A model generated the notes under the pieces. It was given only the letters and a program-made list of their open reading frames with translations. It did not search any database and was not told the origin of the DNA. Source: a bacterium (GTDB lineage: Bacteria; T1Sed10-126). Taken from it: a stretch of 20,037 nt of DNA. Positions 1,949 to 20,037 of the stretch are shown piece by piece (the stretch's first letter is position 1; every line of letters starts with the position of its first letter). Made by a program: the position numbers and the translations under genes. The stretch covers positions 1 through 20,037 of the forward strand of contig PWOD01000188.1 in NCBI GenBank assembly GCA_003557545.1, given 5' to 3'.

Positions 1949-1964
1949 ATAACAGCTTGATTTG

Positions 1965-1994
1965 TTGACATTTCACAATGTTTCGCCGTACAAT
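1965..1994 (+). promoter_or_regulatory. Strong sigma-70 promoter of the pilus operon
   Basis: TTGACA (1965-1970, six of six) and TACAAT (1989-1994, five of six) are separated by 18 bases. It lies directly after an intrinsic terminator and would start RNA near 2001, leaving a leader of about 35 bases before GTG at 2037. Any translation start earlier than about 2000 would lie within or upstream of this promoter, which supports the GTG. Confidence 0.8.
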
Positions 1995-2021
1995 GAAGCA
2001 AACTTATTGGTAATCTATTGT

Positions 2022-2026
2022 GGAGG
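2022..2026 (+). promoter_or_regulatory. Shine-Dalgarno GGAGG that fixes the pilB GTG start
   Basis: GGAGG lies ten bases before GTG at 2037. An in-frame upstream TTG at 1962 has no such site and sits at the -35 box, so it is rejected as a start. Confidence 0.75.
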
Positions 2027-2036
2027 AATTAGAGCT

Positions 2037-3797: not shown

Positions 3798-3865
3798 TCG
3801 GCAGGAAAACTGAAACAAGCTCAACAGTAAAGCTGGTCAAATATACGGTGGAGGATAGTATTTAA

Positions 3866-5584
3866 ATGGAACCACATAGGTTGTTGGAATCTCTGGTGGA
3901 AAAAAAATTCATTTCCGGACAGGTGGCCGATCAGTTGTTAAGCCGTTCGGAGGCTGAGATTGAAGATATACTGGAGATTCTGGAGGAGGAGTTTGGGCTG
4001 GATCGTCGTCAGGTGCTGGAGACCTATGCCTTTAGTTACGGGATGGATTATGTTGATCTTGAGGGGTTTGAGCCGGATGATGAGCTGCTTGGGCTGCTTG
4101 ACTCTTCCACAGCACAACAGTATTTTATTTTTCCTTATGAACAGCAGGCCGGACATTTAAAACTGGCTGTGGCTGAGCCGCCGGATCTGAGGATGGTTGA
4201 CGATCTCGAAGCAATTCTGGAGATGCCGGTAGAATGTTCTCTGACCGATCCGCAGCTTCTTGAAGAGCTGGTTTCCAGCCATTATGGAACAACACTTGCT
4301 GATATTGAATCGATTCTGGCTGAGCTTGGTGGGGACGATTTGATCCAGGTGGAAGATAGTGCCGGCGAGGCTGATGTTGCTGAACTTGAGGAGCAGGCCG
4401 AAGAAGCTCCGGTGATAAAGCTGGTTAACATGATTATAATGGAGGCGGTTCAGGAGGGGGCAAGTGATATCCATATTGAGCCGCTTGAAGGTAAATTACT
4501 TGTCAGGTATAGAATAGATGGTGTTCTGCATAAGGCCCATGAACCTCCAAAAAAACTTCAAGGGGCGGTTATTTCACGAATAAAAATTATGTCGGAGATG
4601 GATATTGCCGAGCGTCGTACCCCTCAGGACGGTAGAATTAAATTAAAGATGATGGGGCGGGAGTTTGATTTCAGGGTTAGCTGTTTACCTGGAATTTATG
4701 GAGAAAGCGTTGTCTTGAGAATCCTTGATAAAGAGTCGGTTAAAATCGGGCTGGAAAATCTTGGTTTTCTGCCTGATAATAAGGCGATTTTCAATCAGTT
4801 GATTCGTCGTCCCAATGGGATTATTCTCGTTACCGGCCCGACCGGGTCGGGAAAAACCACCACGCTCTATTCGGCGCTGCGAGAGTTAAATACCCCCGAT
4901 AGAAAGTTGATTACAATTGAAGATCCAGTTGAATATCAGCTTGATGGGATTAATCAGATGCAGGTTAATAATGAGATCGGGTTGGATTTTTCCTTTGGTC
5001 TTAGCCGGCTGTTGCGCCAGTCTCCGGATATTATTCTGGTGGGGGAAATAAGGGATTATGAAACGGCAGAAACTGCGATACGGGCGGCGCTGACCGGTCA
5101 TTTGGTTTTTTCTACCTTACATACTAACGATGCACCCAGTGCGGTCAACAGGCTGATCGATCTGGGGCTTAATCCATACCTTATCAGTTCGGCGGTACAG
5201 GCGATAATGGCCCAGCGGTTGGTGAGAACTATCTGTAAACAGTGTAAAACTGAATACAAACCGGAGATCGATTATATTCGGCAGGTAGGATTTCCCGAGG
5301 AGGCAGTAGAGGAGTTCACATTTTACCAGGGTGCTGGCTGTGAAGAGTGTAATATGACCGGTTATTCAGGTCGGGCTGCGATCTTCGAGATGATGACCAG
5401 TACCGAGGAGATAAAACAGCTTATTATGGAGGGATGTTCCACGGCAGAATTGCGGGAAGCAGCCATCGACAATGGCATGCGGACCTTGCGTCGGGATGGA
5501 TTTATTAAGGTTATGCTGGGGCAGACAACCCTGATGGAGATAGCCAGGGTAACCCAGGCACACGGGACAACGGCGGCGATTTGA
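3866..5584 (+). CDS. pilB: Second PilB/GspE assembly ATPase, degenerate N-domain
   Basis: A 572-residue paralog of the preceding ATPase. Walker A GPTGSGKTT is at 324-332, Walker B Glu394 in LVGEIRD, and the tetracysteine at C457, C460, C492, C495. These are the same residue numbers as in the first copy, so the catalytic halves align without net gaps. The N-domain keeps the 24-5-24 spacing (residues 5-28 and 34-57), but LG is replaced by LL and IL and both terminal Gln are Ser, so nucleotide binding there is doubtful. It retains the canonical Ser in the P-loop and STLHTN. ATG start with GGAGG (3850-3854) 11 bases upstream. It could be a second extension motor, a hetero-oligomer partner, or a motor for another pilus or secretion function. 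Co-transcription with its neighbours is likely. Confidence 0.93.
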   Translation: MEPHRLLESLVEKKFISGQVADQLLSRSEAEIEDILEILEEEFGLDRRQVLETYAFSYGMDYVDLEGFEPDDELLGLLDSSTAQQYFIFPYEQQAGHLKLAVAEPPDLRMVDDLEAILEMPVECSLTDPQLLEELVSSHYGTTLADIESILAELGGDDLIQVEDSAGEADVAELEEQAEEAPVIKLVNMIIMEAVQEGASDIHIEPLEGKLLVRYRIDGVLHKAHEPPKKLQGAVISRIKIMSEMDIAERRTPQDGRIKLKMMGREFDFRVSCLPGIYGESVVLRILDKESVKIGLENLGFLPDNKAIFNQLIRRPNGIILVTGPTGSGKTTTLYSALRELNTPDRKLITIEDPVEYQLDGINQMQVNNEIGLDFSFGLSRLLRQSPDIILVGEIRDYETAETAIRAALTGHLVFSTLHTNDAPSAVNRLIDLGLNPYLISSAVQAIMAQRLVRTICKQCKTEYKPEIDYIRQVGFPEEAVEEFTFYQGAGCEECNMTGYSGRAAIFEMMTSTEEIKQLIMEGCSTAELREAAIDNGMRTLRRDGFIKVMLGQTTLMEIARVTQAHGTTAAI

Positions 5585-5634
5585 TAGATCTGAATCAGTC
5601 ATTAAGAGTTTATTAAACAGGTGGAGGTAATCAA

Positions 5635-6690
5635 ATGTTAGCTAACGAGATTATGGAGCTGTGTATTGAAAAAGATGCTTCGGATGTACATTTTGCGGTG
5701 GGCTCACCACCGGTCCTCCGGTTGGACGGCAGCATGCAGCGGTTGGAGGAGTTTGGCGATCTGACCTCGCAGGATACGAATGAACTGGTTAAATCTATTA
5801 CACCGGATAAATATCTCAAGCAGCTAAAAAAACGTGGCAGCAGTGATTTTGGTTATGAACATAAAGATGGTAACCGGTTCCGTGTGGCAATTTTCAAACA
5901 GCAAAAACATGCGGGTATGGTAATGCGGCTGATTCCCAACAAGATATTTTCATTTGAAGATTTAGGTCTGCCTGATATTATGAAGGAACTCTGTACTTAC
6001 CCACGGGGTATTGTGCTGGTTACCGGTCCGACCGGTTCTGGAAAGACGACGACGCTGGCAGCTTTTATCGATTACATTAATAAAAATTACAAAAAACATA
6101 TCATAACTATTGAGGATCCAATTGAGTTTAAACACCCCCATAAAAAATCACTTATTACGCAACGTGAATTAGGGGTGGATGTCCTCTCCTTCAGCGATGG
6201 AATCAGGGCTGGTTTACGGATGGACCCGGATGTTATGCTGGTAGGTGAGATGCGGGACAGGGAAACGATCGGCGCTGCTATAACAGCTGCGGAGACAGGA
6301 CATTTGGTGTTTGCCACTTTGCATACTAATAGTGCAGCCCAGACGGTCAACCGTATAATCGACACTTTTCCGCAGGAGGAACAGGCTCAGGTGAGATCAC
6401 AACTTTCAATAACTCTTACCGCAGTTATTTCACAGAATCTGCTGCCGCTGAAGGAGGGGTCGGGACGAACGGCTGCGTTTGAAATTATGGTCGCCACACC
6501 AGTAATAAGAAATCTTATCAGGGAGAAAAAGGAACAGAACATTCCTTCGGCCATTCAAACCGGTGGAAATCTCGGTATGCAGACACTTGATCAGCATATA
6601 AGTGAACTTTACAAACAGGGCAAGATCTCCTTTGAAGAGGCGGTGGCCAAGGCTCAGGATGCTGAAGAGCTGAAAAAAAAGATCCAATAA
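5635..6690 (+). CDS. pilT: Type IV pilus retraction ATPase PilT
   Basis: A 351-residue protein, the usual PilT length, that would depolymerise the pilus to give twitching and pilus retraction. The N-terminal PAS-like domain carries SDVHFAVGSPPVLRLDG. Walker A GPTGSGKTT is at 131-139, the Asp-box IEDPIEF follows, Walker B contains Glu205 in LVGEMRD, and the His-box is FATLHTN. The C-terminal region has VIRNLIRE (from residue 290), matching the AIRNLIRE motif characteristic of PilT, and NLGMQTLDQHI. No tetracysteine is present, which separates it from the two PilB copies. ATG start with GGAGG (5623-5627) seven bases upstream. It lies 50 bases after the second PilB and 60 before PilC, consistent with one operon. 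A true retraction motor argues for a T4P rather than a pure type II secretion system. Confidence 0.96.
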   Translation: MLANEIMELCIEKDASDVHFAVGSPPVLRLDGSMQRLEEFGDLTSQDTNELVKSITPDKYLKQLKKRGSSDFGYEHKDGNRFRVAIFKQQKHAGMVMRLIPNKIFSFEDLGLPDIMKELCTYPRGIVLVTGPTGSGKTTTLAAFIDYINKNYKKHIITIEDPIEFKHPHKKSLITQRELGVDVLSFSDGIRAGLRMDPDVMLVGEMRDRETIGAAITAAETGHLVFATLHTNSAAQTVNRIIDTFPQEEQAQVRSQLSITLTAVISQNLLPLKEGSGRTAAFEIMVATPVIRNLIREKKEQNIPSAIQTGGNLGMQTLDQHISELYKQGKISFEEAVAKAQDAEELKKKIQ

Positions 6691-6750
6691 AAAACCAGGG
6701 TTATTAACAGTTTTACGATTTAAATGAACCTTAAAAATTGAGGAGTTATT

Positions 6751-7971
6751 ATGGCTATTTTTGATTATCAGGCGCTCAATTCATCCGGTGAAGAGGTCTC
6801 AGGACGGATTGAAGCAGCAAATGAAAAAAATGCTGTAAGTAAGTTGCGTGAGCGTGGTCTGCGACCGTTTGAAGTGGAAACGGTGAATGAAAAAGTTTTC
6901 AACCTGATGGATTATGTCCCGTTTTTTGGTGGGAAAATTGCTTCGGCTGAGGAGATTGCCCTGTTTACCCGGCAGATGGCGACCCTGCTCAAGGCTGGTT
7001 TACCACTTTTGAGAGCAATAAATATTTTGGAAGAGCAGACCGAAAATGATGATTTTAAGCGGGTAATCGAGCAGATTTCTCAGGATATACAGGGGGGGGC
7101 AAGTTTTAGCGATTCTCTGCGCCGTCATCCGTCTGTTTTTGATGATCTTTACGTTAATATGGTTAAGGCTGGTGAGGTTGGAGGGGTAATGGATAAGGTT
7201 CTGGAAAGGCTGTCGGATTTTGCTGAATCAGCTGAAGAACTTAAAACTAAGATTAAATCTGCTGTTATGTATCCGGCTGTCATTTTCTGTATGGCTCTGG
7301 TGGTTGTGACCTTTCTGCTGCTGTTTGTAATTCCTACTTTTATCTCACTTTTCCAGGAGATGGGGGTGGCCCTGCCGCTGCCGACCAGGATTGTTGTCGG
7401 CGCCAGTAATTTTGTGCTGGGTTACTGGTATCTGCTGATTGGTGGAGCTGTTCTCGGTTGGTATATTTTGAAATGGTATTACAACACCGATAAAGGCGAA
7501 CATAATATTGACAACTTAAAGATTAATCTACCGATTTTTGGCAGTTTATTCAGAAAAGTTTCTATAGCTCGTTTTGCCCGGACTCTGGCCACTTTGATTC
7601 GCAGTGGTGTACCGATTTTACAGGCCATAGAAATCGTCCAGGATACGATTGGAAATCGTGTTGTCTCGGAAAAAATGGATGATGTATATGATAGCATTAG
7701 TGAGGGAGATACTATGAGCGAACCCCTCCATCAATCGGGGGTTTTCCCTCCCATGGTAACCCATATGATATCGGTGGGTGAAGAGACAGGAAATCTGGAC
7801 GGAATGCTGGCCCGGGTTGCCGACACATATGAGATGCAGGTTGAAGAGATGGTTGATGGACTCAGTTCGATGCTGGAACCGATTTTGATTCTTTTCATGG
7901 CGATTGTCGTGGGAACGATTGTCATGGCGATTTTCTTCCCGATGTTTCAGCTTGTTCAGGTGGTTGGATAA
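6751..7971 (+). CDS. pilC: Type IV pilus inner-membrane platform protein PilC/GspF
   Basis: A 406-residue polytopic protein, normal PilC length, that forms the inner-membrane platform turned by PilB and PilT. It begins with the conserved FDYQALNSSGEEVSGRIEA region. It has two GspF repeats, each with the helical signature (FTRQMATLLKAGLPLLRAI and FARTLATLIRSGVPILQAI). Three membrane segments are visible near residues 174-198, 221-243 and 378-400. The acidic MVKAGEVGG and ISVGEETGNLD segments are typical. ATG start with AGGAG (6741-6745) five bases upstream. A run of eight G at 7092-7099 lies inside the first repeat. Confidence 0.95.
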   Translation: MAIFDYQALNSSGEEVSGRIEAANEKNAVSKLRERGLRPFEVETVNEKVFNLMDYVPFFGGKIASAEEIALFTRQMATLLKAGLPLLRAINILEEQTENDDFKRVIEQISQDIQGGASFSDSLRRHPSVFDDLYVNMVKAGEVGGVMDKVLERLSDFAESAEELKTKIKSAVMYPAVIFCMALVVVTFLLLFVIPTFISLFQEMGVALPLPTRIVVGASNFVLGYWYLLIGGAVLGWYILKWYYNTDKGEHNIDNLKINLPIFGSLFRKVSIARFARTLATLIRSGVPILQAIEIVQDTIGNRVVSEKMDDVYDSISEGDTMSEPLHQSGVFPPMVTHMISVGEETGNLDGMLARVADTYEMQVEEMVDGLSSMLEPILILFMAIVVGTIVMAIFFPMFQLVQVVG

Positions 7972-7986
7972 ATTAAAGAAATCGAT

Positions 7987-7993
7987 AGGAGGT
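7987..7993 (+). other. Orphan consensus Shine-Dalgarno AGGAGGT with no start codon
   Basis: A perfect AGGAGGT lies 15 bases after the pilC stop. No ATG, GTG or TTG occurs within the usual distance (next bases are CGAAATCCAGGGATAATC). It may be a remnant of a lost gene between pilC and the pilin, or chance. Confidence 0.4.
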
Positions 7994-8042
7994 CGAAATC
8001 CAGGGATAATCAAAGGATTTTAATCGTTCAATCGTTAAATTA

Positions 8043-8071
8043 TTAACAAATCCTGAAAAATCAGGTAATAT
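8043..8071 (+). promoter_or_regulatory. Possible promoter for the pilin gene
   Basis: TTAACA (8043-8048, five of six) and TAATAT (8066-8071, four of six) are 17 bases apart, with a small CCTGA/TCAGG inverted repeat in the spacer. It lies in the 188-base gap before the pilin. A separate promoter would fit the high demand for pilin, but the -10 is poor. Confidence 0.3.
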
Positions 8072-8145
8072 TATGCTGTTCTGTATAGACTGATTAGCTG
8101 CTCTGATTGAGTTGATAGTAACCAGTGTGATCGGTTAAATATTAA

Positions 8146-8152
8146 AGGAGGT
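8146..8152 (+). promoter_or_regulatory. Full-consensus Shine-Dalgarno of the pilin gene
   Basis: AGGAGGT lies seven bases before ATG at 8160, the strongest ribosome site used by any gene in the window. This fits an abundant structural subunit. Confidence 0.85.
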
Positions 8153-8159
8153 CTTAAAG

Positions 8160-8582
8160 ATGGTATTGGCTAATTATAAAGGTGAAAAGGGTTTTACGTT
8201 GATTGAGCTTATGGTGGTAATAGCTATTATTGGTATTCTTGCTGCTGCTGTTGTGCCTCAGGTCTGGGACGTGGTCTGTGATGCTCAGGTGTCCCGGGCA
8301 AAATCGGACGCCGCGGTAATTGAAACTGCCTGGACCCAGTGTATGCTTGATAATGCCTGTGATGAAGAAGAACTGAATGATACATGGGAAGATTTTTTAC
8401 CCTCCAGGATTTATAATCCACGACCAAATGATCCGGAATGGCAGATTGTAATTAATGATGATCGTTTGATCGAAGTTGATGATGTGGGTTGTGAGTGGGA
8501 AGATGATGATGAAAATGTTGGCCGTGGACTGAGGTATAACACCAGCACGGGTGAGTTTGAGGCAATAGTCTCGCTTTCTTAA
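8160..8582 (+). CDS. Type IV prepilin (GspG/PilA-like), acidic, four cysteines
   Basis: A 140-residue class III-type prepilin. An 11-residue leader with two lysines ends in Gly11, followed by FTLIE with the conserved Glu at mature position 5, so prepilin peptidase should cleave between Gly11 and Phe12 and methylate Phe. The hydrophobic helix runs to VVPQV. The rest is strongly acidic (29 Asp/Glu against 9 Lys/Arg in the whole precursor by hand count), with a DDDE cluster near residues 115-118. Cysteines are at 40, 61, 67 and 111; C61 and C67 could form a small disulfide loop. The start of the mature chain resembles GspG major pseudopilins, but no GspG calcium-site motif is evident. It is the only pilin in the window and sits between PilC and PilM, so it may be the major or an accessory subunit. 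Confidence 0.9.
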   Translation: MVLANYKGEKGFTLIELMVVIAIIGILAAAVVPQVWDVVCDAQVSRAKSDAAVIETAWTQCMLDNACDEEELNDTWEDFLPSRIYNPRPNDPEWQIVINDDRLIEVDDVGCEWEDDDENVGRGLRYNTSTGEFEAIVSLS

Positions 8583-8821: not shown

Positions 8822-11089
8822 ATGGGATTGTTTGGGTTTGGCAAGCAAACTAATTTTCTTTCCATAGATTTTGGTGCTTCAGCCCTGAAACTGGGTCGTG
8901 CCAGGGTCAAGGGGGGGAAGCGGCTGGATTTTTCCCTCGTTGATTCAATCTCTGTTCAGAATTTTTCTTCTGAAGATTATGTTGAACGTTCGATCGCAGC
9001 GTTAAAAAAATCTGTCGACAAAAATAAACTTTCCAAAAATCAACCTGTGATAATCGGCCTGCCCGCCAGTGATGTAATAATTCGCCGGCTTGAACTGCCA
9101 GCAATGCCCGAGGATCGATTGAAAAAGGTTATTGGTTATGAAGCCGAAAGTCATATTCCCTTTCCGGTCGATCAGGTGGTTATGGATCATCATCTGATTG
9201 CGCGTGATCAAGATGGAGTCGAGGTTTTGCTGGCAGCAGTCAAAGAGACAAATCTTGATAAATATCTCGAGATTGTTGAGGGAGCAGGATTGACCCCCTC
9301 AGTTGTCGATGTTACAGCTTTCGCTTATTTCAATCTGTTTCAGTTTATCCAGGATAATCAGGGAAAAAAGGCTGACCGGGGTGTGAAGGCACTGGTTGAT
9401 ATCGGTCATGGAAATACGGATATAATGGTTTTTGAAGGTAAAAATCTGCAGTTTGCCCGTTCGGCTTCTGTTGCTGGAAAAGCTCTTACCGGGGCTATAG
9501 CTGAAGAGTTTGAGGTTGAACCGGCTGAAGCGGCTGCTTTAAAACATCAGTATGGTCATATCCCTCTGGGAAAATCATCAGATGAAGGTACGGCAACCGG
9601 GACGAAGACCGGTGAGTCCTTATCCCGGTTGGCCGAACGGAGAAAACAGGATGAAAAACCACCTTCTCCCCCCCCACCACCGCCACCTCCAGAGGAAAGT
9701 TTGGAAAAACCGGCGGATGAGTCGGAGCATGAAAAAGAGGAGGAAGACAAGCCTCGCCCGCCGTCCGGGGATCAAAGTTTGACCCAACCGCAGGAAGAAG
9801 CAGAGAAATCAGAAGATGAAGAAACAGAAGAACTGTCGGAATCTATTGAGTCGACTGAAATCAGTCAGGATAGTCCTTCGGAGGTAGATACAGAGTCAGA
9901 TGAACCAGCTGATTCGGAGGTTGAAACTGGGCAAACATCTGATAAAGCAATAAGCCGGGATGAGATCGAACAAAAATTAGGGCTTGGGAAACCCCGAAAA
10001 CCCCGGGGGAAACAAAAAACCGTTGAGGAATCGAAAGAGGATGACGAATTTGAACTGGAGGGAGGGATTTTGGAAGAAGAGTTGGAGGAGGAAGATGGGG
10101 AAGGGTTGTTGGATGATGAGCTTGATGATGACGATTCGCTCAGTCTGGGGGCTGCGGAGCTGAATGATCAGGTTGAGACTAATGATGAAGCAGCCGAGAA
10201 AAGCAGGAGGGTTGGAGCGGCTGTTAATCCTCGAATGAATCGGCTTGTGGGAGAGTTAAGACATACCTTTGATTATTTTCAATCGGAGCTTGGTGGGGGA
10301 GAAATCACTGAGATAATTGTTTCAGGCGGGAGCAGTAAATTAAACAATCTTCCTGAGTTTATTTCTGATGGTCTCGGGATTCAAACAGTTTTATTCAAAC
10401 CGGGTGATAGTATAAGAGGTGTAAATACGGTTAAAATACCGGAGTTTGCAGTCTCGGCCGGGTTGCAGTTAAGAGCCCGCCCGGCCAGCTGTCTGCTTGG
10501 TTTTGATTTAACACCAGGGGAATTGATTGTAAAAAAGCGGCGTTCGCAGCAAAAGAAAAGACAGCGATTACTTGGTCTGCTTCTGATGTTGTTCGCTCTG
10601 TTATTGCTATTGACGGGTGCTTTATTCTACCAGCGCCGGGCTCGGGAGCTGGAAGTTACTGAGGAGATTTTAGAACGGTTGGATCCGGTTGTCGCCCAGG
10701 TGGAAGATCTGCAGGTGGCTGAGGAAGAAATTCGTCGCCGTCTACAGTTAATTCAAAATTTAGAAGACCAAAAATCAGATATTTTAGCTCTGCTGTGGGA
10801 AATCGAACAGTTTCCCCGACCGGATTATGGTCCGGAGCTCCGGGAAAGGACCTGGTTTGAATCGTTTGATTACACTAAGGATGAGCCTGAGGGGACCTTT
10901 ACTATTCAGGGAGTGACCGGTAACTATGAGGATGCTTCGAGGGTTTTTCGCTGGATGGAAAATCGTGACCATATCATCTCCCAGATAAGCGAAAACATGA
11001 GTACCCAGGAGTTTGTTATTGAGGGTGAGGAATGGGATATGATCTCTTTTAGTGCCAGATATAGTATTGCCTTTGGGGCGGAGCGATAA
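8822..11089 (+). CDS. pilM: PilM-PilN fusion with a long acidic insertion
   Basis: A 755-residue protein. Residues 1-245 are the first part of the actin-like ATPase PilM (phosphate-1 motif SIDFGASALKL; second phosphate motif VDIGHGNTDIMVF). Residues 246-467 are low complexity: polyproline at 280-290, then long Asp/Glu/Ser-rich stretches. Residues 468-551 resume PilM (LRHTFDYF, IIVSGGSSKL, PEFAVSAGLQL). At 561-567, FDLTPGE resembles the INLLPxE peptide by which PilN docks on PilM. A basic segment and one membrane helix (583-604) follow, then a coiled coil and a PilN-type periplasmic domain (FTIQGVTGNYEDASRVFRWM). PilM and PilN are normally separate. The fusion would place PilM in the cytoplasm and PilN in the periplasm. 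ATG start with GGGAG (8809-8813) eight bases upstream; a TAA in frame lies at 8801. Confidence 0.9.
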   Translation: MGLFGFGKQTNFLSIDFGASALKLGRARVKGGKRLDFSLVDSISVQNFSSEDYVERSIAALKKSVDKNKLSKNQPVIIGLPASDVIIRRLELPAMPEDRLKKVIGYEAESHIPFPVDQVVMDHHLIARDQDGVEVLLAAVKETNLDKYLEIVEGAGLTPSVVDVTAFAYFNLFQFIQDNQGKKADRGVKALVDIGHGNTDIMVFEGKNLQFARSASVAGKALTGAIAEEFEVEPAEAAALKHQYGHIPLGKSSDEGTATGTKTGESLSRLAERRKQDEKPPSPPPPPPPPEESLEKPADESEHEKEEEDKPRPPSGDQSLTQPQEEAEKSEDEETEELSESIESTEISQDSPSEVDTESDEPADSEVETGQTSDKAISRDEIEQKLGLGKPRKPRGKQKTVEESKEDDEFELEGGILEEELEEEDGEGLLDDELDDDDSLSLGAAELNDQVETNDEAAEKSRRVGAAVNPRMNRLVGELRHTFDYFQSELGGGEITEIIVSGGSSKLNNLPEFISDGLGIQTVLFKPGDSIRGVNTVKIPEFAVSAGLQLRARPASCLLGFDLTPGELIVKKRRSQQKKRQRLLGLLLMLFALLLLLTGALFYQRRARELEVTEEILERLDPVVAQVEDLQVAEEEIRRRLQLIQNLEDQKSDILALLWEIEQFPRPDYGPELRERTWFESFDYTKDEPEGTFTIQGVTGNYEDASRVFRWMENRDHIISQISENMSTQEFVIEGEEWDMISFSARYSIAFGAER

Positions 11090-11091
11090 AG

Positions 11092-11637
11092 ATGGAAAAA
11101 CGGGAAAAAATACTGGTTGGGATACTTTTAATAATAGCCCTGGGGGCTGGATATTTTTATCTGGACCTTCCATTCTGGGAAAACTACCTGGTCTGGGGAC
11201 AGGAGATCGAAGAAAATCTTCAGCAGATAAGGGTTGCCCAACGTCGAGCAGCAGAACTTGATAGATTGATTGAGGATTACCGGCAGATTCAGCGGGAACT
11301 GCGGGAAGCGCAGCGAAAACTGCCGGAAGAGGGTGAGTTTTTTGAGTTGCTTGCCAGTCTTGAACAGGAGGCAGAGCGGGCTGGCATACCATCACGTAAT
11401 ATCCGATCTTTTGAACGTGGGGCTGAAAGAACCCGGGATCAGGTTCGAGAAATGAGCATTCAAGCCCAGTTTGCTGAAATTACTATTGGCCAGTTAGCTC
11501 GTCTTCTCTGGAGTTATGATGATCTGGAACGATTGATCGACATTGAACGTCTTCGGGTCCGCCCGGTGCGGGGTAAGGATAGTTTTAATGTTGATCTGGA
11601 ATTGATGGTCTATATGCTGCGGGAGGGGGAGAGTTAG
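11092..11637 (+). CDS. pilO: Type IV pilus alignment protein PilO
   Basis: A 181-residue bitopic inner-membrane protein, near the small end of the PilO/GspM range. One membrane helix is at residues 7-24 after a short basic N-terminus (MEKREK). A heptad-rich coiled coil follows (about 35-85: QRRAAELDRLIEDY, QRELREAQRKL). A C-terminal ferredoxin-like domain then begins at EEGEFFELLASLEQEAERAGI, with IQAQFAEITIGQLARLLWSYDDL typical of PilO. It would dimerise with the PilN part of the preceding protein and link to the PilP-like next protein. Its ATG is two bases after the pilM-pilN stop and its stop is two bases before the next start, so translation is probably coupled. Confidence 0.9.
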   Translation: MEKREKILVGILLIIALGAGYFYLDLPFWENYLVWGQEIEENLQQIRVAQRRAAELDRLIEDYRQIQRELREAQRKLPEEGEFFELLASLEQEAERAGIPSRNIRSFERGAERTRDQVREMSIQAQFAEITIGQLARLLWSYDDLERLIDIERLRVRPVRGKDSFNVDLELMVYMLREGES

Positions 11638-11639
11638 TT

Positions 11640-12287
11640 TTGGAGGTAAGTGAACTGTGGGAGCGGTTAACCGGTAAAATCGATTTTGTAACTGCTGGAC
11701 TGGTAGCTCTACTGATTCTTAATCTGTCATTGGGTTTATTCTTTTTGTATAGTTATTTAACCCCGGTTGATTTTCATGAACAGCATGGAATTTCAGCAGT
11801 AGATGATTATCTGGAGCTGCAGGATGAAGTCGGTGAACTGCCTGAGATCGATGAAGTTGATGATAGACCGTTGGAGGAGCCCGAGGAGTTTCCAGAAAGG
11901 TATGCGGAGTTGGAAGAAACCGAGTTATTCATCTCTCTTCCCCGCCGACTGGAACTGGGGATCGGCGTTCCTCCCGAGGAACCGGTTGTTGATACTCCGG
12001 TGGAAGAGCCTGAGGTCGATGAAAAACCCCGGATAGAGGGGTACAGGGTGCTGGGAAGAATTATTAGTGAAGAAACTGAAAATCTTGGGATTATTGAGGA
12101 AATTGAGACGGAAGAAACTTATATTGCCCGTCCGGGTTCAAGGTTGGGTCGCACTGAAATAACGGTTGAAGCGGTAACTGATACTGCTGTCTGGGTAACC
12201 AAACCTGATCACCGGAAGACCGATTTACGGTTGCAGATGGATAGAATTTCAGAAGATATACGCGATGTGATTGATTTTCACAGGTAA
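11640..12287 (+). CDS. PilP/GspC-like periplasmic linker protein, one membrane helix
   Basis: A 215-residue protein. TTG start, two bases after the pilO stop, with a purine-rich GGGAGGGGGAGAG (11621-11633) upstream. It has a short cytoplasmic segment, a single membrane helix (16-38), a long acidic proline-rich linker (about 60-132; many EEP/EE and DD pairs), and a compact beta-rich C-terminal domain (about 135-195, from YRVLGRIISEE through TYIARPGSRLG and EVTVEAV-like strands to AVWVTK). That layout matches GspC and the PilP homology-region domain: a self-repeating IIEE..ETYxxRxGxxLG pattern. In those families the domain contacts the N0 domain of the secretin. PilP is normally a lipoprotein, whereas this protein is membrane-anchored like GspC. 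Position between pilO and the secretin supports a PilP role; homology is inferred from pattern and order. Confidence 0.7.
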   Translation: MEVSELWERLTGKIDFVTAGLVALLILNLSLGLFFLYSYLTPVDFHEQHGISAVDDYLELQDEVGELPEIDEVDDRPLEEPEEFPERYAELEETELFISLPRRLELGIGVPPEEPVVDTPVEEPEVDEKPRIEGYRVLGRIISEETENLGIIEEIETEETYIARPGSRLGRTEITVEAVTDTAVWVTKPDHRKTDLRLQMDRISEDIRDVIDFHR

Positions 12288-12425: not shown

Positions 12426-15400
12426 GTGAATAGCAGGATTTTAAACTTCTTACCGCTTTTTCTCGTGGGAATTGCCCTGATCTTTCCGGGGGTAGCTGAG
12501 CCCCGGGGGGTAGTGGTAGAACCCGGAGAACCGGAAGAAATAATTGTAGATGTTCCGCCCTCAGCCCAGGCTGGAGTTGAGTTTTCTTTACGATTAACGG
12601 TGCTTGATTCAGAGGGAAATGTTGTAGAAAATTACGATAACATGGATCGTACTGTTGAGCTGTCTACTGATAGAAGCGGAAGGCTTTCCAAAACAGTGGT
12701 TGAGTCGACGGAGTTTAATAGAGGTAGAGCTACATTACTGATCAGTTATGATCTGGCGGAAGAGATTACCTTGAGGGCTCGGGAGTCTGAAAATGTGGCC
12801 CGGGGTCGTTCAGAAAATATCAACGTGCGTCCAGGTCCCCCCGAGGAGTTTATTGTTACAGTACCTGAATCGGTTCGTGCCGGTGAGGAGTTTCTGGCTG
12901 AAATTCGTGTAAAAGATGGTCAGGGTAACCGGGTGTTAAGATATCGGGAGATGACCAACGGAGTAATTTTGAACAGTACCGGACAGGCACGTCCATCTCC
13001 AGAATTTATTCCGGCCCATCGGTTTCATGAAGGCCGGGCAAGATTTAATTTAACCTATCAAATTGCTGAGGAGATAGAACTACAGGTTGAAGATGAAGTA
13101 AGGCAGATAACGGGCCAGTCCGGATTGCTGTCAGTGAAACCTGCTGCGCTTTCCAGATTTGTCATATCGATCCCGGAGATTGTTCGGGTTGGTCAGCCCT
13201 TTAGAATGGCGATTGAGGCTCGTGATAGGTTTGGCAACATAGTTAGAAATTATGACCAGATTGGTGGAGGGGTAGAGCTGCGAACAACCGGCGAGGGAGA
13301 GCCACAACCTGGATTTATTGATGCAGATAAATTTGAAGACGGAGTTATTTTTACCAGGCTTACCTATGACCGTGCCGAAAGTTTTAATTTAATTGTTAAG
13401 GATAGGGTGGCCCCGGTGGAGGGGCAGAGTGGTCGGATGAGGGCCCGCGCAGGTGAACTTGCAGAGATCGAGTTGGAAACTCCCGGCGAAGCTCAGGCGG
13501 GTGAAGAGTTCAGGGTTGAACTGACAGCCTTTGATAAGCATGGTAATCGGATTGTTGATTTTGCACGCTCAGGCGATACTCTCCTGTTATATAATCAATA
13601 TGATGAGCAGCAACGACGGATGGTTCCGCGGGAGATATTTGAACGTGGCAGGGCTGAACTATTATTTAGTGATACTGTTGCTCGGACCACCCGGCTGGTG
13701 GTTGAAACTCATGATCAACGGTTGCAAACTGTCGGTGAACAGATTCGTATTACCCCTGGTTCGCCGGCAAAACTGGCGGTTGAAACGCCGGGGATGGTTG
13801 AGGCTGGGACACAGTTTTCCGTCCGTGTTGGACTGTACGACCAGTATGGAAATAAGATTAAAGAGCCGGCCCATTTAACCGGTGAACTCACAGCCGGATT
13901 AATTGAAGTGGAAGATCCGGAGGATAAGATTGTCTCCCCTCGAAAATTTATTGATGGTTATCATCAAATGCAGTTTCGAACTGAGCGGGCTGATACCGTT
14001 CAATTATTGGTTGAATACAGTGAATATAATATTACCTCTAAAAGTGACCAGATTCGGGTTCGCCCGGCTGATTTTTACCGGGTTGCAGTTAGAACACCGG
14101 GTCAGGGTCAGGCCGGTGAAAAGATCCGTATGACCCTGCAGATGCTCGATCGTTTTGGTAATCTACTTGATGAGGTTCCTGAGGGGTTAGAAAGGTTTGA
14201 AATAGCCTCCACCGGTAGCGGTCAGTTTGTTCCTCGAATATTATCGCGCGAAAATATTGTGGCACCATCCTTTGTTGTGGAGTTGGATTATTTTGTTGCT
14301 GAAGTTGTCACCCTGAATATTTTAAATGAGCGTGGTCGTCAGTTGGGCAGTTCAGCTCCGATTAGTATTAGACCTGGGCGGCTGGCCCGTCTGAATTTGA
14401 GTGCTCCACCTGAAGTTGAAGCCGGCCGGTCATTTCCTGTACGTATCAGGAGTGAGGATCTCTATGGCAATATTATTGAAGATATTAGCCGTCATACCGG
14501 TGAGATTAGGCTTCTTGCCCGGCAGACCGGAGATGAGCTGGGTACTGTTTCTTTTGATAATTTTATCGATGGCCGGGTAGAAAGCTCGATCAGTCATGAA
14601 ACTGCTGGACGGTTGGAGTTGCTGGCAGCCCATGAAAATGTTCAAACTGCTTCATCCAAGATTGAAGTAATCCCCGGTGACCCCCGTGAATTTGTTGTGG
14701 CGGCGCCGGAAAGAGTTAATGCCGGAGTACCTTTCCAGGGAGAAATAACAGCCTACGATCGTTATGGCAACAGGGTGGCAGATTTGCCGGCTGATTTTGC
14801 GGGGGTGCAAATTAGAACCTCTAATGCCGAGGAAATAAGTCCCGGCGGAGTGATGAAAAATCTATTTGATAACGGCCGGGCTGAAGTTTTCTTTGTTTAT
14901 CCTCGAACAGGCCGGCTGGAAATAACTGCCGAACCGCTGGCCCATCGACTAACCGAACCGTCAGTCTCCCGCCCTTATGTTCAACGGCAGCCTGATACCG
15001 CTCGGATAATGTTTGTTTTTTCTGGTAATGTAAATGCTAGAATTCAGGCAATCGAGACCGGTCGTCGGGTCGATGTTGCCTTTCAACCCGCGGTTCTTAA
15101 CCGGGAAACACGATTTTACAGTTTTGACAACTGGTTTATCAAAAGAATTGCCCAGCAACAGGTAGAAAACCCTCCTTCTCCGTTGACAATGTTACAGGTT
15201 TTTCCCCGAGAAGAGGTCGATGTCAGCAAGACCGTAGAAAAGAATCTACTGGTCCTGGAATTTGGCCGCCGGCATCTTGACATACCAACGCTGGAAAGGA
15301 TTCATGATCTAATCGAGGGCCAGCAGTTTGAAGAGGCTCAAATAAAATTACACCGTTATTTAGAACAGAATCCCGATGATCCCTACGCTATCAGGTTGCG

Positions 15401-15440
15401 CCACAGGATAGAACGGATACAAGAGATCCTTAGTTTGTAA
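12426..15440 (+). CDS. Exported eight-repeat Ig-like protein with AMIN-like and TPR-like C-terminus
   Basis: A 1004-residue protein I cannot name. A signal peptide (about 1-24, ending GVA) directs export. Eight Ig-like repeats of about 103 residues begin at 37, 140, 243, 346, 448, 551, 654 and 754. Each has a beta strand ending in VP/TP/AP, then a (V/A)(R/G/E/N)xG..F, then a D..GN motif (GN conserved in all eight), and most end in a V.PG/V.PA linker. Residues about 859-947 resemble an AMIN domain (ARIMFVF, RRVDVAF, ending NLLVLEFG), which in secretin-associated proteins binds peptidoglycan. Residues 956-1000 form one TPR-like helical pair. It lies between the PilP-like gene and the secretin, 16 bases before the latter, so it is probably a periplasmic or outer-membrane accessory of the secretin. 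A purely extracellular adhesin is possible. GTG start. Confidence 0.85.
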   Translation: MNSRILNFLPLFLVGIALIFPGVAEPRGVVVEPGEPEEIIVDVPPSAQAGVEFSLRLTVLDSEGNVVENYDNMDRTVELSTDRSGRLSKTVVESTEFNRGRATLLISYDLAEEITLRARESENVARGRSENINVRPGPPEEFIVTVPESVRAGEEFLAEIRVKDGQGNRVLRYREMTNGVILNSTGQARPSPEFIPAHRFHEGRARFNLTYQIAEEIELQVEDEVRQITGQSGLLSVKPAALSRFVISIPEIVRVGQPFRMAIEARDRFGNIVRNYDQIGGGVELRTTGEGEPQPGFIDADKFEDGVIFTRLTYDRAESFNLIVKDRVAPVEGQSGRMRARAGELAEIELETPGEAQAGEEFRVELTAFDKHGNRIVDFARSGDTLLLYNQYDEQQRRMVPREIFERGRAELLFSDTVARTTRLVVETHDQRLQTVGEQIRITPGSPAKLAVETPGMVEAGTQFSVRVGLYDQYGNKIKEPAHLTGELTAGLIEVEDPEDKIVSPRKFIDGYHQMQFRTERADTVQLLVEYSEYNITSKSDQIRVRPADFYRVAVRTPGQGQAGEKIRMTLQMLDRFGNLLDEVPEGLERFEIASTGSGQFVPRILSRENIVAPSFVVELDYFVAEVVTLNILNERGRQLGSSAPISIRPGRLARLNLSAPPEVEAGRSFPVRIRSEDLYGNIIEDISRHTGEIRLLARQTGDELGTVSFDNFIDGRVESSISHETAGRLELLAAHENVQTASSKIEVIPGDPREFVVAAPERVNAGVPFQGEITAYDRYGNRVADLPADFAGVQIRTSNAEEISPGGVMKNLFDNGRAEVFFVYPRTGRLEITAEPLAHRLTEPSVSRPYVQRQPDTARIMFVFSGNVNARIQAIETGRRVDVAFQPAVLNRETRFYSFDNWFIKRIAQQQVENPPSPLTMLQVFPREEVDVSKTVEKNLLVLEFGRRHLDIPTLERIHDLIEGQQFEEAQIKLHRYLEQNPDDPYAIRLRHRIERIQEILSL
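12534..14995 (+). repeat. Eight tandem Ig-like repeats, about 309-base period
   Basis: Repeat starts are at 12534, 12843, 13152, 13461, 13767, 14076, 14385 and 14685. The spacings are 309, 309, 309, 306, 309, 309 and 300 bases. Conservation is at protein level (GN, AG..F, terminal V.PG); DNA identity between units is low, so the array is old and diversified rather than recently duplicated. Confidence 0.85.
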
Positions 15441-15456: not shown

Positions 15457-18400
15457 ATGAAAAATATTCAGCAGGATAATTCAAAGGTGATTTTAAATTT
15501 ACGAACTTGCTCAAGGGCGTTACTGGCTTTAGTTGTCCTGTTATTTGTGGGAACTATGGCAGTGGAGAGTCTGGCTTCGATCCCTGATTTTACTGAAGCT
15601 GTTACTGCCTATGTTAATGGCGAGGATGGCCGGGCTCGTTCTATTCTTCAGGAAATTTTAACTGAAGAGCCTGATAATTTTCGAGCCAGAAATCTTTATC
15701 GTGAGCTGGGGGGGGACCCCCGTAACTTTGAAAAACTGGAATCGGATCGATCTGACAGGATTGAAAGTGAGGATGAACCGGCCACTGTTGAACAGTCAGC
15801 AGAAATAGTTCCAGATTTTTTAGATGATCGGCGTGAAGCTGCTGAAGTTGAATTAAAACCGGCCACAGGTCCGGTTGCTGTGGAACGGCAGAAAATTCGT
15901 CTGCCCGAAGAGCGCACTCCTCTGCAGAAACGGCAGTTTTATAATGAAGATCCTGATGGCCCGTCTCCGGGAACTGAAGCCGTATATGGGATTAGCGCTG
16001 AAGAGTATGATGATCATGTTCTGTTACTATTAGAAGGAACCGGCAATTTAAACTATATTTCATCCCGCGTTCTGAATCCACCCATGTTAATTCTTGATCT
16101 CATTAATGTTGAAAATGAACTGCCCCATCGAACCCACGATATTGGTCTGGGTGAGGTTTTGAGAGTAAGATCCACTATGGCCCGGACCGAACCGGTTGCT
16201 ATAGCCCGTGTAGTTGTCGATATTGATCGCTGGAGCGAAGAATATCAGGTTAAACCGGTAGAGTCCGAAAATATGCTGGCGATTAAAATATATGATAGAG
16301 AGAAAGAACCGGAGATTCCCGAACTGGATCCTCCCAAAATTCCTCTTGCCGAGGTAGAAACAGTGGAGAGCGATACAATTGGGCAACCGGAGAATCTCCA
16401 GATTGTAACTGGAGATCAGCAGCAGTTGGTGGTCGGGCAGGAGGCCCCGGAACGACTGGTTGTGCAGTTGACCGATGTTGAGGGGAATCCTGTGGTTGGA
16501 GAACAGGTGGAGTTTGAAGTGATTAATGAGGCCGGGGAAGTTGATGCTCAACCGGATCGGGCGGATCTTCAAAAAACCGCAGTTTCTGATTCTGCTGGAT
16601 ATCTATCAGCCAGCTTTAAAGCTGGGTCTAAACCGGGTAAAGCACTGGTTGAAGCTCGGGTACCAGCCCATGATCTACTGGTAAGATTTGGTTTTGAAAT
16701 AAGTCCTGGACCTCCGGCTCGTCTGGTCAAAATATCCGGTGATCAGCAGGAAGTTAGAATGGGGCAGCTGGCTCTTGAGCCACTGGTTGTGGAGGCTCAG
16801 GATGAACTGGGGAATCCACTTCCTGACCTGGGGGTGGCTTTTCGGGATCTGAGTGGTCGAGGAGTTTTAAAGCTGGAAAGAGGTCGTCAATCAGCAAAGC
16901 CGGTGGGAAACTATGTGAATCTTGTCACCGATGCTCAGGGTCGGGTTCAAAATCTATTGTACCGCGTTCCTCCAGATGAGAGAACCAGCCGGGTCGAAGC
17001 TCGTTTGCGTGATTCGGAGTATCAACAGATAGCAACAGTTTTTCATATTTATTCCAGACCAAAATTAATCGATCTTGCCCTGGAAGATGTTAACCTTCAG
17101 GCGCTTCTCCGGACTTTGTCTGAAATTGCCGGGTGGAACCTGGCTCTGCCGGATGAGATAGAGGGAATGCCGATCGACGAGGTTAATGTAACCGTCTATT
17201 TAACTGAAGTTTCGGCAATTCGAGCATTGGATACAATCCTTGATCTAAAAGGGTTGGCCCGGGTAAGCGATGGTAATATAATGAGAATTGTTGATAAATA
17301 TGAGGCGGTTCGCTCCGGGGTTCCGGTTATTTCTCCGGATGAAATTGATCAGCATCCCGGTAATAATATGGTGACGGTAGCCTATACACTGCGATTTCTG
17401 GAAGCCACCAGTGACCTTGCAAGTCGCTTGAGAGATGGTCTGATGTCGGATGAATCAAGTATAATATCCGATGAACGGAGTAATTCTCTGGTGGTAACTG
17501 ATCTGGCGGAAAACCAGCGACGGTTTAATAAAATAATTGAACAGATCGATCGTCCGGATGAGTTGTTTGAGGTTAAGATTGTTTCACTTCAATATCGTGA
17601 TCCCGAACGGATGGCCGACGAAATCGAACAGTTGTTACCTACTGGACAGGGTAATGTTGTTCCCAATGTAGCCACCAGCAGCCTGGTTATCTTTGGTGAT
17701 CCGACTCTGTTAACTCAGATAAACAAAGTGGTTGAAGCGCTCGACCGCCCCGGGGTTTTGATGGACTATTTCCAGGTGGTCGATCTGGCTGGATATGATG
17801 TTAATCAGATAGCCCAGCAGGTCAATACAATTCTCGGTTTACAGACTGTACCGATCGAAACAATTCTTGAACTTGATATTGAAATCGATGATCCCGAGGA
17901 TCTGCGTCGGATCCTTCAGGAGGGCCGGGCAGTTGATATTGAAGCTTTACTTTCTCAGGCTAGCATTATTCCAGTCGAGACGGTTGACCGGATAATAATT
18001 TTTGCTCCCCGTGAGATTCAGGAGACAGCCCGGAGGATGATTGAACATCTTAAACGTGATGCTGGTGAATATCTTGAGGAGCGCAGCTGGCGCTGGGTTA
18101 CTATCCAGAATCTACCCTTCCAGGAAGCTCGTCGGTTGATCAATCGGATGGGTGGGCTGACAATTCAAACAGTTCTGGCAGAACAAAATGCTTTTCTTAT
18201 CTCCTCGACGGACGCAGAAAACTTAGACCGTCTGGAGCGTTTTCTTCAAGAAGTTGATCGAGATATTGTGATCGATGATCGCCGGCAGATCCTTGTCTAT
18301 TCCCCCCAATATATTGAAACTGATCAGCTGGCCGATGATCTGGAAGATTATTATGAGGAGATAAGAGATGCAAATCTTGAAGATGTGGGAGATTATCCAC

Positions 18401-20037
18401 CACGTATTCTGTACCGGGACGAACGGACTCTTGTGGCTGTGGTAGCTCCTGTGGAAGCTGCTTTTATTCGCCGTTTAATGAACAAGTTGGATCGTTATGT
18501 TGCGGAGGAAAAAGCGGTCATAACATATTCACCATCTCATCTTGACGCTGATGAACTGGCTGACAAGCTGGAGGATCATGAGATTGGGACTGTGCTTTAT
18601 TCGGATGGACAGCGGTTATCATTACTGGTTCCCCGGCAGCGGCGGGAGGAACTGTATGAACTGATCCGGGCAATTGATGAGCCCCGTTATTCGACACAGG
18701 TCGTTTATCTCAAAAATACCCGGGCTCCTGAGCTGGTTGAATCTCTTGAAAAGATTCAGGAAGGGATGGATATAAATGTTCATTTTGCCGCTGACAGGGT
18801 AACTAACAGCATTATATATTCGGCACCGATCGAAGCCCAGGATGAGATTGAAAGGTTGCTACAGCGGCTTGATAAATGGCAAAAGCAGGTTTTTATTGAA
18901 GGAGTAATTCTTGAGTATTCCCATGAAGCCGGTCGCGAAGTAGGAGCCCGCTATGCGCTGACAACCGGGGGGTTCGAAGATGGTTTTGTGCCAGGTGGGG
19001 GTGTGTCGACCGACCAGCAGCTGGATGATCCAAGAATTGCGCCCGGGGAGGCTGGATTTCAGCTGATGGGTGATGGAACTTTTAATGCTATTTTAAATCG
19101 TGCCAGTTTCCGGGCAATGTTCCAGGCAATTACAACCGAGGCGGAGGGCGAAGTTTTAGCAAAACCATTGATTACTGCGATCAATGGCGAGGAAGCTTCG
19201 ATCAGGGTGGGGGATGAGCAGCAGGTTGAAGTTTCACGGCAAACTGCTGAAGGAATAGTTAGTTCCCTGGAGACAGTTGAAGCCTTCACTGAACTGCGTG
19301 TTATTCCTACAATCACCTCTAATCGTTTTGTACGAATGGATCTGCAGATATCAAGTGATGATTTTAGAACGCCGAATCCTGGTGGTAGTGTGGTTACACA
19401 AACCACCCGTCGGACAACGCAAAATTCCGTCCTGGTAAGGGATGGTCAGACGGTGGTTATAGGTGGACTGATTGAGGAACAGGAAAAAGAGTCCCAACGA
19501 GGCATTCCCTTTCTGAAAGATTTGCCTGTGCTGGGCCATCTGTTCAGGTCAAACACGGTTGAAACCAGTAAGCGTGAGTTGATGGTATTTTTAACACCAC
19601 ATGTAATCGAATCACCCGCTGAAGCTGAACGATCAACCCGTAGCGTCAGTGATGAGATGAGCCAACTTTCCCCTCTGGCAGTTAATCTTAATATCTCTCC
19701 CGGCCGCCAGCTTGAGCGGTTGCGGGGGTTGAGTCCGGAACGAGATGCTAACGAGCAGCGTCGCCGTCGGGCTGAAAGAATTATTGAGTTCAGGTCGGAA
19801 ATGGGCCCCTTCAGGCGACTTGATGATCTCCTTGAGGTGCCTGGTATAGATCGGGAAGTTTTGAATAGTATTGTCAGGGAGGTAGCCCTGGAAGTTGATT
19901 TAAATACTGTGTCAGCTAATGATCTAATAAATATTCGTAATATCGACCCTGATATGGCTCGTGAAATTATCGAAACCAGGGATGAGCTGGAGCTTTTCAG
20001 GACACTCGATCCAGTTCGGGAAATAGTTCTGAAACAT
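15457..20037 (+). CDS. pilQ: Giant PilQ-type secretin with ComEA-like tail, 3' end outside window
   Basis: The frame is open from ATG 15457 to the window edge (1527 codons, no stop); AGGAGA (15443-15448) precedes it. It forms the outer-membrane channel for the pilus. Order: signal peptide (about 1-40), TPR-like pair (44-84), acidic linker, AMIN domain (about 188-285), two Big_1-like Ig domains (about 313-418 and 419-535, each with GNP), STN/N0 (537-614), then about seven N1-type alpha/beta repeats (638-702, 703-766, 767-875 enlarged, 877-938, 939-1018, 1019-1077, 1078-1144), then the secretin channel domain (1145-1385) with VLVRDGQTVVIGGL (1326-1339) and GIPFLKDLPVLGHLF. After the channel, residues 1409-1477 and 1480-1523 form two ComEA-like helix-hairpin-helix units. 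Typical PilQ has one or two N1 domains and no such tail. Confidence 0.92.
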   Translation, partial: MKNIQQDNSKVILNLRTCSRALLALVVLLFVGTMAVESLASIPDFTEAVTAYVNGEDGRARSILQEILTEEPDNFRARNLYRELGGDPRNFEKLESDRSDRIESEDEPATVEQSAEIVPDFLDDRREAAEVELKPATGPVAVERQKIRLPEERTPLQKRQFYNEDPDGPSPGTEAVYGISAEEYDDHVLLLLEGTGNLNYISSRVLNPPMLILDLINVENELPHRTHDIGLGEVLRVRSTMARTEPVAIARVVVDIDRWSEEYQVKPVESENMLAIKIYDREKEPEIPELDPPKIPLAEVETVESDTIGQPENLQIVTGDQQQLVVGQEAPERLVVQLTDVEGNPVVGEQVEFEVINEAGEVDAQPDRADLQKTAVSDSAGYLSASFKAGSKPGKALVEARVPAHDLLVRFGFEISPGPPARLVKISGDQQEVRMGQLALEPLVVEAQDELGNPLPDLGVAFRDLSGRGVLKLERGRQSAKPVGNYVNLVTDAQGRVQNLLYRVPPDERTSRVEARLRDSEYQQIATVFHIYSRPKLIDLALEDVNLQALLRTLSEIAGWNLALPDEIEGMPIDEVNVTVYLTEVSAIRALDTILDLKGLARVSDGNIMRIVDKYEAVRSGVPVISPDEIDQHPGNNMVTVAYTLRFLEATSDLASRLRDGLMSDESSIISDERSNSLVVTDLAENQRRFNKIIEQIDRPDELFEVKIVSLQYRDPERMADEIEQLLPTGQGNVVPNVATSSLVIFGDPTLLTQINKVVEALDRPGVLMDYFQVVDLAGYDVNQIAQQVNTILGLQTVPIETILELDIEIDDPEDLRRILQEGRAVDIEALLSQASIIPVETVDRIIIFAPREIQETARRMIEHLKRDAGEYLEERSWRWVTIQNLPFQEARRLINRMGGLTIQTVLAEQNAFLISSTDAENLDRLERFLQEVDRDIVIDDRRQILVYSPQYIETDQLADDLEDYYEEIRDANLEDVGDYPPRILYRDERTLVAVVAPVEAAFIRRLMNKLDRYVAEEKAVITYSPSHLDADELADKLEDHEIGTVLYSDGQRLSLLVPRQRREELYELIRAIDEPRYSTQVVYLKNTRAPELVESLEKIQEGMDINVHFAADRVTNSIIYSAPIEAQDEIERLLQRLDKWQKQVFIEGVILEYSHEAGREVGARYALTTGGFEDGFVPGGGVSTDQQLDDPRIAPGEAGFQLMGDGTFNAILNRASFRAMFQAITTEAEGEVLAKPLITAINGEEASIRVGDEQQVEVSRQTAEGIVSSLETVEAFTELRVIPTITSNRFVRMDLQISSDDFRTPNPGGSVVTQTTRRTTQNSVLVRDGQTVVIGGLIEEQEKESQRGIPFLKDLPVLGHLFRSNTVETSKRELMVFLTPHVIESPAEAERSTRSVSDEMSQLSPLAVNLNISPGRQLERLRGLSPERDANEQRRRRAERIIEFRSEMGPFRRLDDLLEVPGIDREVLNSIVREVALEVDLNTVSANDLINIRNIDPDMAREIIETRDELELFRTLDPVREIVLKH
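19681..20037 (+). other. Two ComEA-like helix-hairpin-helix units fused to the secretin C-terminus
   Basis: The first unit reads NLNISPGRQLERLRG, a basic stretch, AERIIEFRSEMGPFRRLDDL, then LEVPGID. These positions match the ComEA pattern (N.N.A...L..L.GI, A..II..R...GPF....DL..V.GI). The second reads DLNTVSANDLINIRNIDP, then AREIIETRDELELFRTLD. The second hairpin lacks the Gly (RNID), so it may be degenerate. The tail continues past the window edge. Confidence 0.75.

Follow-up and report, generated by a model that had tools for sequence, protein, structure and literature searches.

The secretin encoded at the end of the analysed window, i.e. the whole stretch of 20,037 nucleotides, runs in one open frame from a PilQ-like channel protein into a tandem of two helix-hairpin-helix (HhH) units, and the same fusion occurs in the same pil operon in all seven examined genomes of three small phyla. 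Judged from their residues, these tails are preserved HhH folds without the ComEA-type grip on DNA. On balance, we consider it probable that the tail serves protein-protein docking or assembly, on a pilus secretin linked to competence, and lacks ComEA-type DNA binding. In the literature searched, mainly papers free of subscription, we found no description of a secretin with HhH domains, and to that extent the combination of a secretin with an HhH tandem appears undescribed.

Domain organization and operon of the secretin

The secretin ORF (15457..20037, + strand, as for all features below) leaves the contig, with 1527 of its 1573 amino acids in the window. It contains an AMIN domain, typical of PilQ (16009..16284, residues 185-276; PF11741, 21.9 bits with a cut-off of 20.5), followed by an Ig-like region resembling Invasin_D3/Big_1 (16414..16665, residues 320-403) and a weak N0-like domain (17080..17289, residues 542-611; PF21305, E 0.03), both below the curated Pfam cut-offs, the latter scoring E 0.001 in a relative. 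Three N1-type Secretin_N repeats are found (PF03958, E 4e-30 over the whole window protein), the best of them at 17572..17754 (residues 706-766), and the secretin channel domain lies at 19129..19611 (residues 1225-1385; PF00263, E 5e-42), with 143.7 bits exceeding the curated cut-off of 27.5 by far.

The channel domain is joined to the tail by a conserved linker (19612..19680), alignable in 7/7 homologues. HhH unit 1 (19681..19872, residues 1409-1472) is matched by HHH_3 with E 6e-16 in two stretches, and a relative's model of it shows the ComEA fold. Its first hairpin (GLSPERDANEQRRRRA, 19726..19773) is expanded, i.e. nine residues longer than that of ComEA and without the G-h-G motif, while its second hairpin reads VPGID (19837..19851), with D in place of the second glycine. 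HhH unit 2 (19891..20037) is matched by HHH_3 up to 20010, has RNID as its first hairpin and is completed on a second contig with GVSEQYFDRYLEPVFVV. An earlier sequence-only reading had described the secretin as continuing in frame into two ComEA/HhH units, and the Pfam matches to Secretin and HHH_3 in a single open frame bear this out, residue 1409 falling exactly on base 19681, from which that reading let the units start. The ‘PGI’ hairpin that it had pointed out in unit 1 is likewise real, except that the motif is G-I-D rather than the DNA-binding G-I-G.

The window is an entire contig (C167) of a 239-contig draft assembly (G000), and unit 2 is interrupted by its end. The missing part was located through the gene 3' of the secretin in G001, a genome of the same family, which encodes a protein of 399 aa lacking any Pfam match. 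Contig C221 of the window's genome, when reversed, starts with the final 27 bases of the window, and the frame goes on to GVSEQYFDRYLEPVFVVETGDADSSRPAPPPTQNRRREPLPEIDLF and a stop, giving a joined protein of 1,573 residues. We infer this join, with strong support, from the 27-base overlap together with the synteny to G001: in both genomes, the secretin is followed by the 399-aa protein or its homologue, a nucleoside diphosphate kinase and comEC. A protein of approximately 390-400 aa is also found 3' of the secretin in several relatives.

Regarding the type of secretin, both the AMIN domain and the pil operon context (pilM-pilO, pilT) that mark a type IVa pilus secretin are present. The NCBIfam model IV_pilus_PilQ reached 212.5 bits, below its curated cut-off of 284.35, and the GspD model reached 325 of the 351 bits needed, also below its cut-off yet higher than the PilQ score. 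The type IV pilus cluster begins with two PilB/GspE-type ATPases, a PilT-type ATPase, a PilC-type membrane protein and a pilin (1962..8582), of which the pilin was recognized by N_methyl (E 1e-10), and the ATPases and PilC were assigned by sequence reading and gene order. These are followed by PilM with a fused PilN-like part, PilO and a PilP-like protein (8822..12287); PilO is supported by PF04350 (E 1e-9), whereas PilM, PilN and PilP were assigned by sequence reading and gene order, i.e. PilP by its position. The PilM-type protein (8822-11089) combines a long acidic, proline-rich insert and the C-terminal PilN-like part in a single frame, and is similar in the relatives. Directly upstream of the secretin, a large Ig-repeat protein of 1004 aa (12426..15440), present in all three phyla, is possibly a partner of the secretin; by sequence reading, its end is AMIN-like and TPR-like. 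The order pilM(N)-pilO-(pilP)-(Ig-repeat protein)-secretin is recurrent across the relatives. A second secretin (L037:2080-3612), of the CpaC/RcpA type and belonging to a Tad-like cluster of the same genome, has no HhH tail.

Distribution of the fusion and of competence genes

The homologue in G001 is complete (1,614 aa) and shares 48% identity with the window protein over 446 residues. Homologues of 2,201, 2,026 and 2,126 aa were found in G029, G041 and G042, i.e. in 3/3 examined genomes of their phylum, and of 1,961 and 2,109 aa in G135 and G271, i.e. in 2/2 of theirs, with the phylum limits as defined in the search tool. The proteins of the G029 and G135 lineages carry, after a low-complexity linker, a third HhH unit at their extreme C-terminus. 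Searching 386 sampled genomes with a tail-only model (E<=1e-9) yielded a secretin fusion in no genome beyond those of the three phyla, and a second model, applied to a largely overlapping genome sample, likewise yielded no further one. Viral contigs yielded no relative, and the tail was unmatched on plasmids.

Since the window is one contig of a 239-contig draft, a chimeric assembly misjoining two genes near 19620-19700, the error that would have undone the sequence-only reading, had to be considered. The fusion together with its alignable linker is present in six other genomes across the three phyla, which excludes such an error for practical purposes; we consider its probability close to nil.

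Of the competence genes whose search had been proposed along with that reading, comEC and dprA are present in 7/7 genomes with the fusion. In G001, comEC, a ComEA-like protein, a metallo-beta-lactamase-type protein and a ComEA-like lipoprotein are encoded within 8 kb after the secretin, and contig C106 of the window's genome has this same cluster, starting with the end of comEC. Tight linkage of comEC and secretin was observed for the window's family alone; G029 has a comEC some 22 kb off on the contig of its secretin, and the remaining genomes have it on contigs other than the secretin's. The comEC/ComEA neighbourhood supports a role of the pilus in DNA uptake in the window's family. Two loci downstream of comEC (L039:268-1317 and L035:2013-3086) encode a stand-alone ComEC-type metallo-beta-lactamase protein between two ComEA-like genes.

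Stand-alone HhH proteins are encoded in every one of the seven genomes, with 11-32 HHH_3 stretches per genome, and the fusion genomes encode ComEA-like proteins with intact hairpins separately from the secretin. Therefore, the tail is unlikely to be the sole ComEA of these cells. HhH proteins are expanded in G029 (32 HHH_3 stretches), where serine/threonine kinase-like proteins also carry terminal HhH units (L148:109-3374, contig C33). On the contig of the G029 secretin, a TPR protein (L041:11156-12598) ends in a GID-type HhH unit and is a candidate partner; this terminal unit is almost identical to the third unit of the secretin, about 20 kb away.

These proteins raise an alternative, namely that the tail is a putative dock for stand-alone HhH/ComEA proteins, with HhH-HhH contacts concentrating ComEA at the pore. 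Such a dock would fit both the many HhH proteins per genome and the near match between the third, GID-type unit of the G029-clade secretin and the end of the TPR protein. However, HhH domains are, to our knowledge, not generally known to pair mutually, and we consider a dock of this kind unlikely.

Fold and DNA-contact residues of the tail

The complete tail of G001 (150 residues), modelled with AlphaFold from an alignment of the seven sequences, was predicted as two HhH units (pLDDT 87). Unit 1 of this model superposes on ComEA of G. stearothermophilus (8dss; Z 11.8, 1.3 A over 65 residues) and on a ComEA-related protein of Thermus (2duy; Z 9.6), so that the HhH fold expected by the sequence-only reading was recovered in the relative's tail. 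The two-unit tandem aligns with the type II secretion pseudopilin GspK/XcpX (6utu) over 123 residues with Z 8.2, a likeness that is only loose because the rmsd is 8.9 A, and single tail units align with PsbU (Z about 5). With Foldseek alone, the tail had no match below E 0.001; ComEA ranked first, at 0.15. When the window's secretin domain was modelled together with its tail, the result was poor (pLDDT 55) and confident in the tail region only, which is insufficient for positioning the tail with respect to the channel.

NCBIfam comE matched the tail with E 4e-13, its 49.5 bits staying below the curated cut-off of 152.35. The T2SSK model of Pfam scored 20.0 bits (E 9e-4) on the window tail and 25.3 bits (E 2e-5) on the G029 relative, with a cut-off of 24.2. 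Since HhH folds are widespread, the fold alone is uninformative about DNA.

More can be learned from the residues that ComEA needs. Critical in ComEA of V. cholerae is K63, its exchange for alanine cutting transformation about 250-fold; G60, in the GIG hairpin, tolerates alanine, not valine or glutamate, G60E being non-transformable; and R71 is required although positioned away from the DNA, probably for stability (PMC3879209). The B. subtilis equivalent of K63, K164, touches DNA in a model (PMC9747964). In our alignment of seven proteins, the equivalents of G60 and K63, on which ComEA of both V. cholerae and B. subtilis depends for DNA binding or transformation, are kept in 0/14 tail units, while those of A64 and R71 are kept in 14/14. 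No hairpin of the seven tails has an in-register G-h-G motif, and hairpin 1 of unit 1 carries an expansion of about 6-40 residues. The first hairpins of unit 2 read NID, NID, GIN, GLT, GIT, GLD and GFT, and the K63 position of this unit is occupied by M, A, M, M, M, I and I. The second glycine of hairpin 1 is present in 42/49 of the stand-alone HhH units encoded by these seven genomes vs 0/14 tail units (Fisher p 3e-9, a value that overstates the contrast because the sequences are related). The key lysine is absent in most of the stand-alone HhH units of these genomes, too. The tails are neutral to acidic and cannot be separated from stand-alone HhH units by net charge, which is uninformative on DNA binding because the proteins of G000 and G001 are acidic throughout. 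Unit 1 of the window has a basic run, RRRR, just before the A64 equivalent and near the position of the ComEA lysine, and a lineage-specific DNA contact through this run is possible from the sequence.

These data bear on the central claim of the sequence-only reading, according to which the tail would be a tethered ComEA that catches DNA arriving on the periplasmic face of the channel, one protein thus acting as both PilQ and ComEA. The fusion itself, the ComEA-like predicted fold (Z 11.8 for the tail unit) and a gene content as in transformable cells, with comEC and ComEA-like genes shortly downstream in the window's family, agree with it, as would the RRRR run; moreover, the pore region of meningococcal PilQ, a protein without such a tail in the reports concerned, binds DNA (PMC2885667). 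What is not supported is the step from fold to receptor, since the G60/K63 equivalents have been lost in 14/14 units, positions at which exchanges in V. cholerae ComEA abolish or strongly reduce transformation, and separate ComEA-like proteins with intact hairpins exist. Considering also the expanded hairpin of unit 1, the stand-alone HhH proteins of every genome and the neutral to acidic tails, we regard a takeover of the ComEA role by the tail as quite improbable.

Role of the tail and comparison with known systems

Some secretins carry a C-terminal S-domain after the channel domain, which binds a pilotin lipoprotein (PMC10499894). As the C-terminus of secretins is the S-domain pilotin site, the tail probably lies outside the channel and does not face the pore. 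The favoured docking or assembly reading would run as follows. In a type IVa-like pilus that probably serves DNA uptake, this protein is the secretin, and in it two degenerate HhH domains of the ComEA/GspK type occupy the position of the S-domain of other secretins. The tail would then stand in the periplasm beside the channel and act through protein contacts, either helping the secretin subunits to assemble and to be anchored at the outer membrane, i.e. the task of S-domain and pilotin, or holding partners there. A docking or assembly role is thus what we infer to be most likely. It is tempting to speculate that the tandem HhH module holds the DNA-uptake machinery at the pore, by non-canonical DNA binding or by docking of the ComEA type, and so physically couples the outer-membrane channel to DNA capture in the periplasm, a broader proposal to which we would give a modest chance.

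In natural transformation, the handover of DNA from the PilQ pore to ComEA in the periplasm is still an open question, and a secretin with a built-in module of the ComEA fold, present in three phyla and located beside comEC in one lineage, offers a test case for a channel that recruits DNA-handling proteins. In addition, the tail points to an S-domain of a new, folded type that would serve in secretin assembly.

Among known systems, PilQ is closest to the secretin as a whole: both have AMIN, N-domain repeats and the secretin channel, and the genes of both share an operon with pilM-pilO, close to pilB, pilT and pilC. In contrast to PilQ, the window protein has a long Ig-containing N-terminal part and the tandem HhH tail. 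With ComEA, the tail unit shares the fold, the NxN start, the A and R core residues and the GPF segment, but it lacks the second glycine of G-h-G and the DNA-contact lysine, its hairpin 1 is expanded and it is fused to a secretin. GspK (T2SSK, XcpX) also has tandem helical units of the HhH type, the sequence match being weak; however, GspK, being a pseudopilin, has a pilin fold and N-terminal helix of its own, whereas the tail is the C-terminal part of a secretin frame. Finally, the S-domains of PulD-PulS, GspD-AspS and RcpA-TadD share with the tail their position C-terminal to the channel domain (here after residue 1385), and while the known ones are short helical or coil segments, the tail is an HhH tandem of 150 residues.
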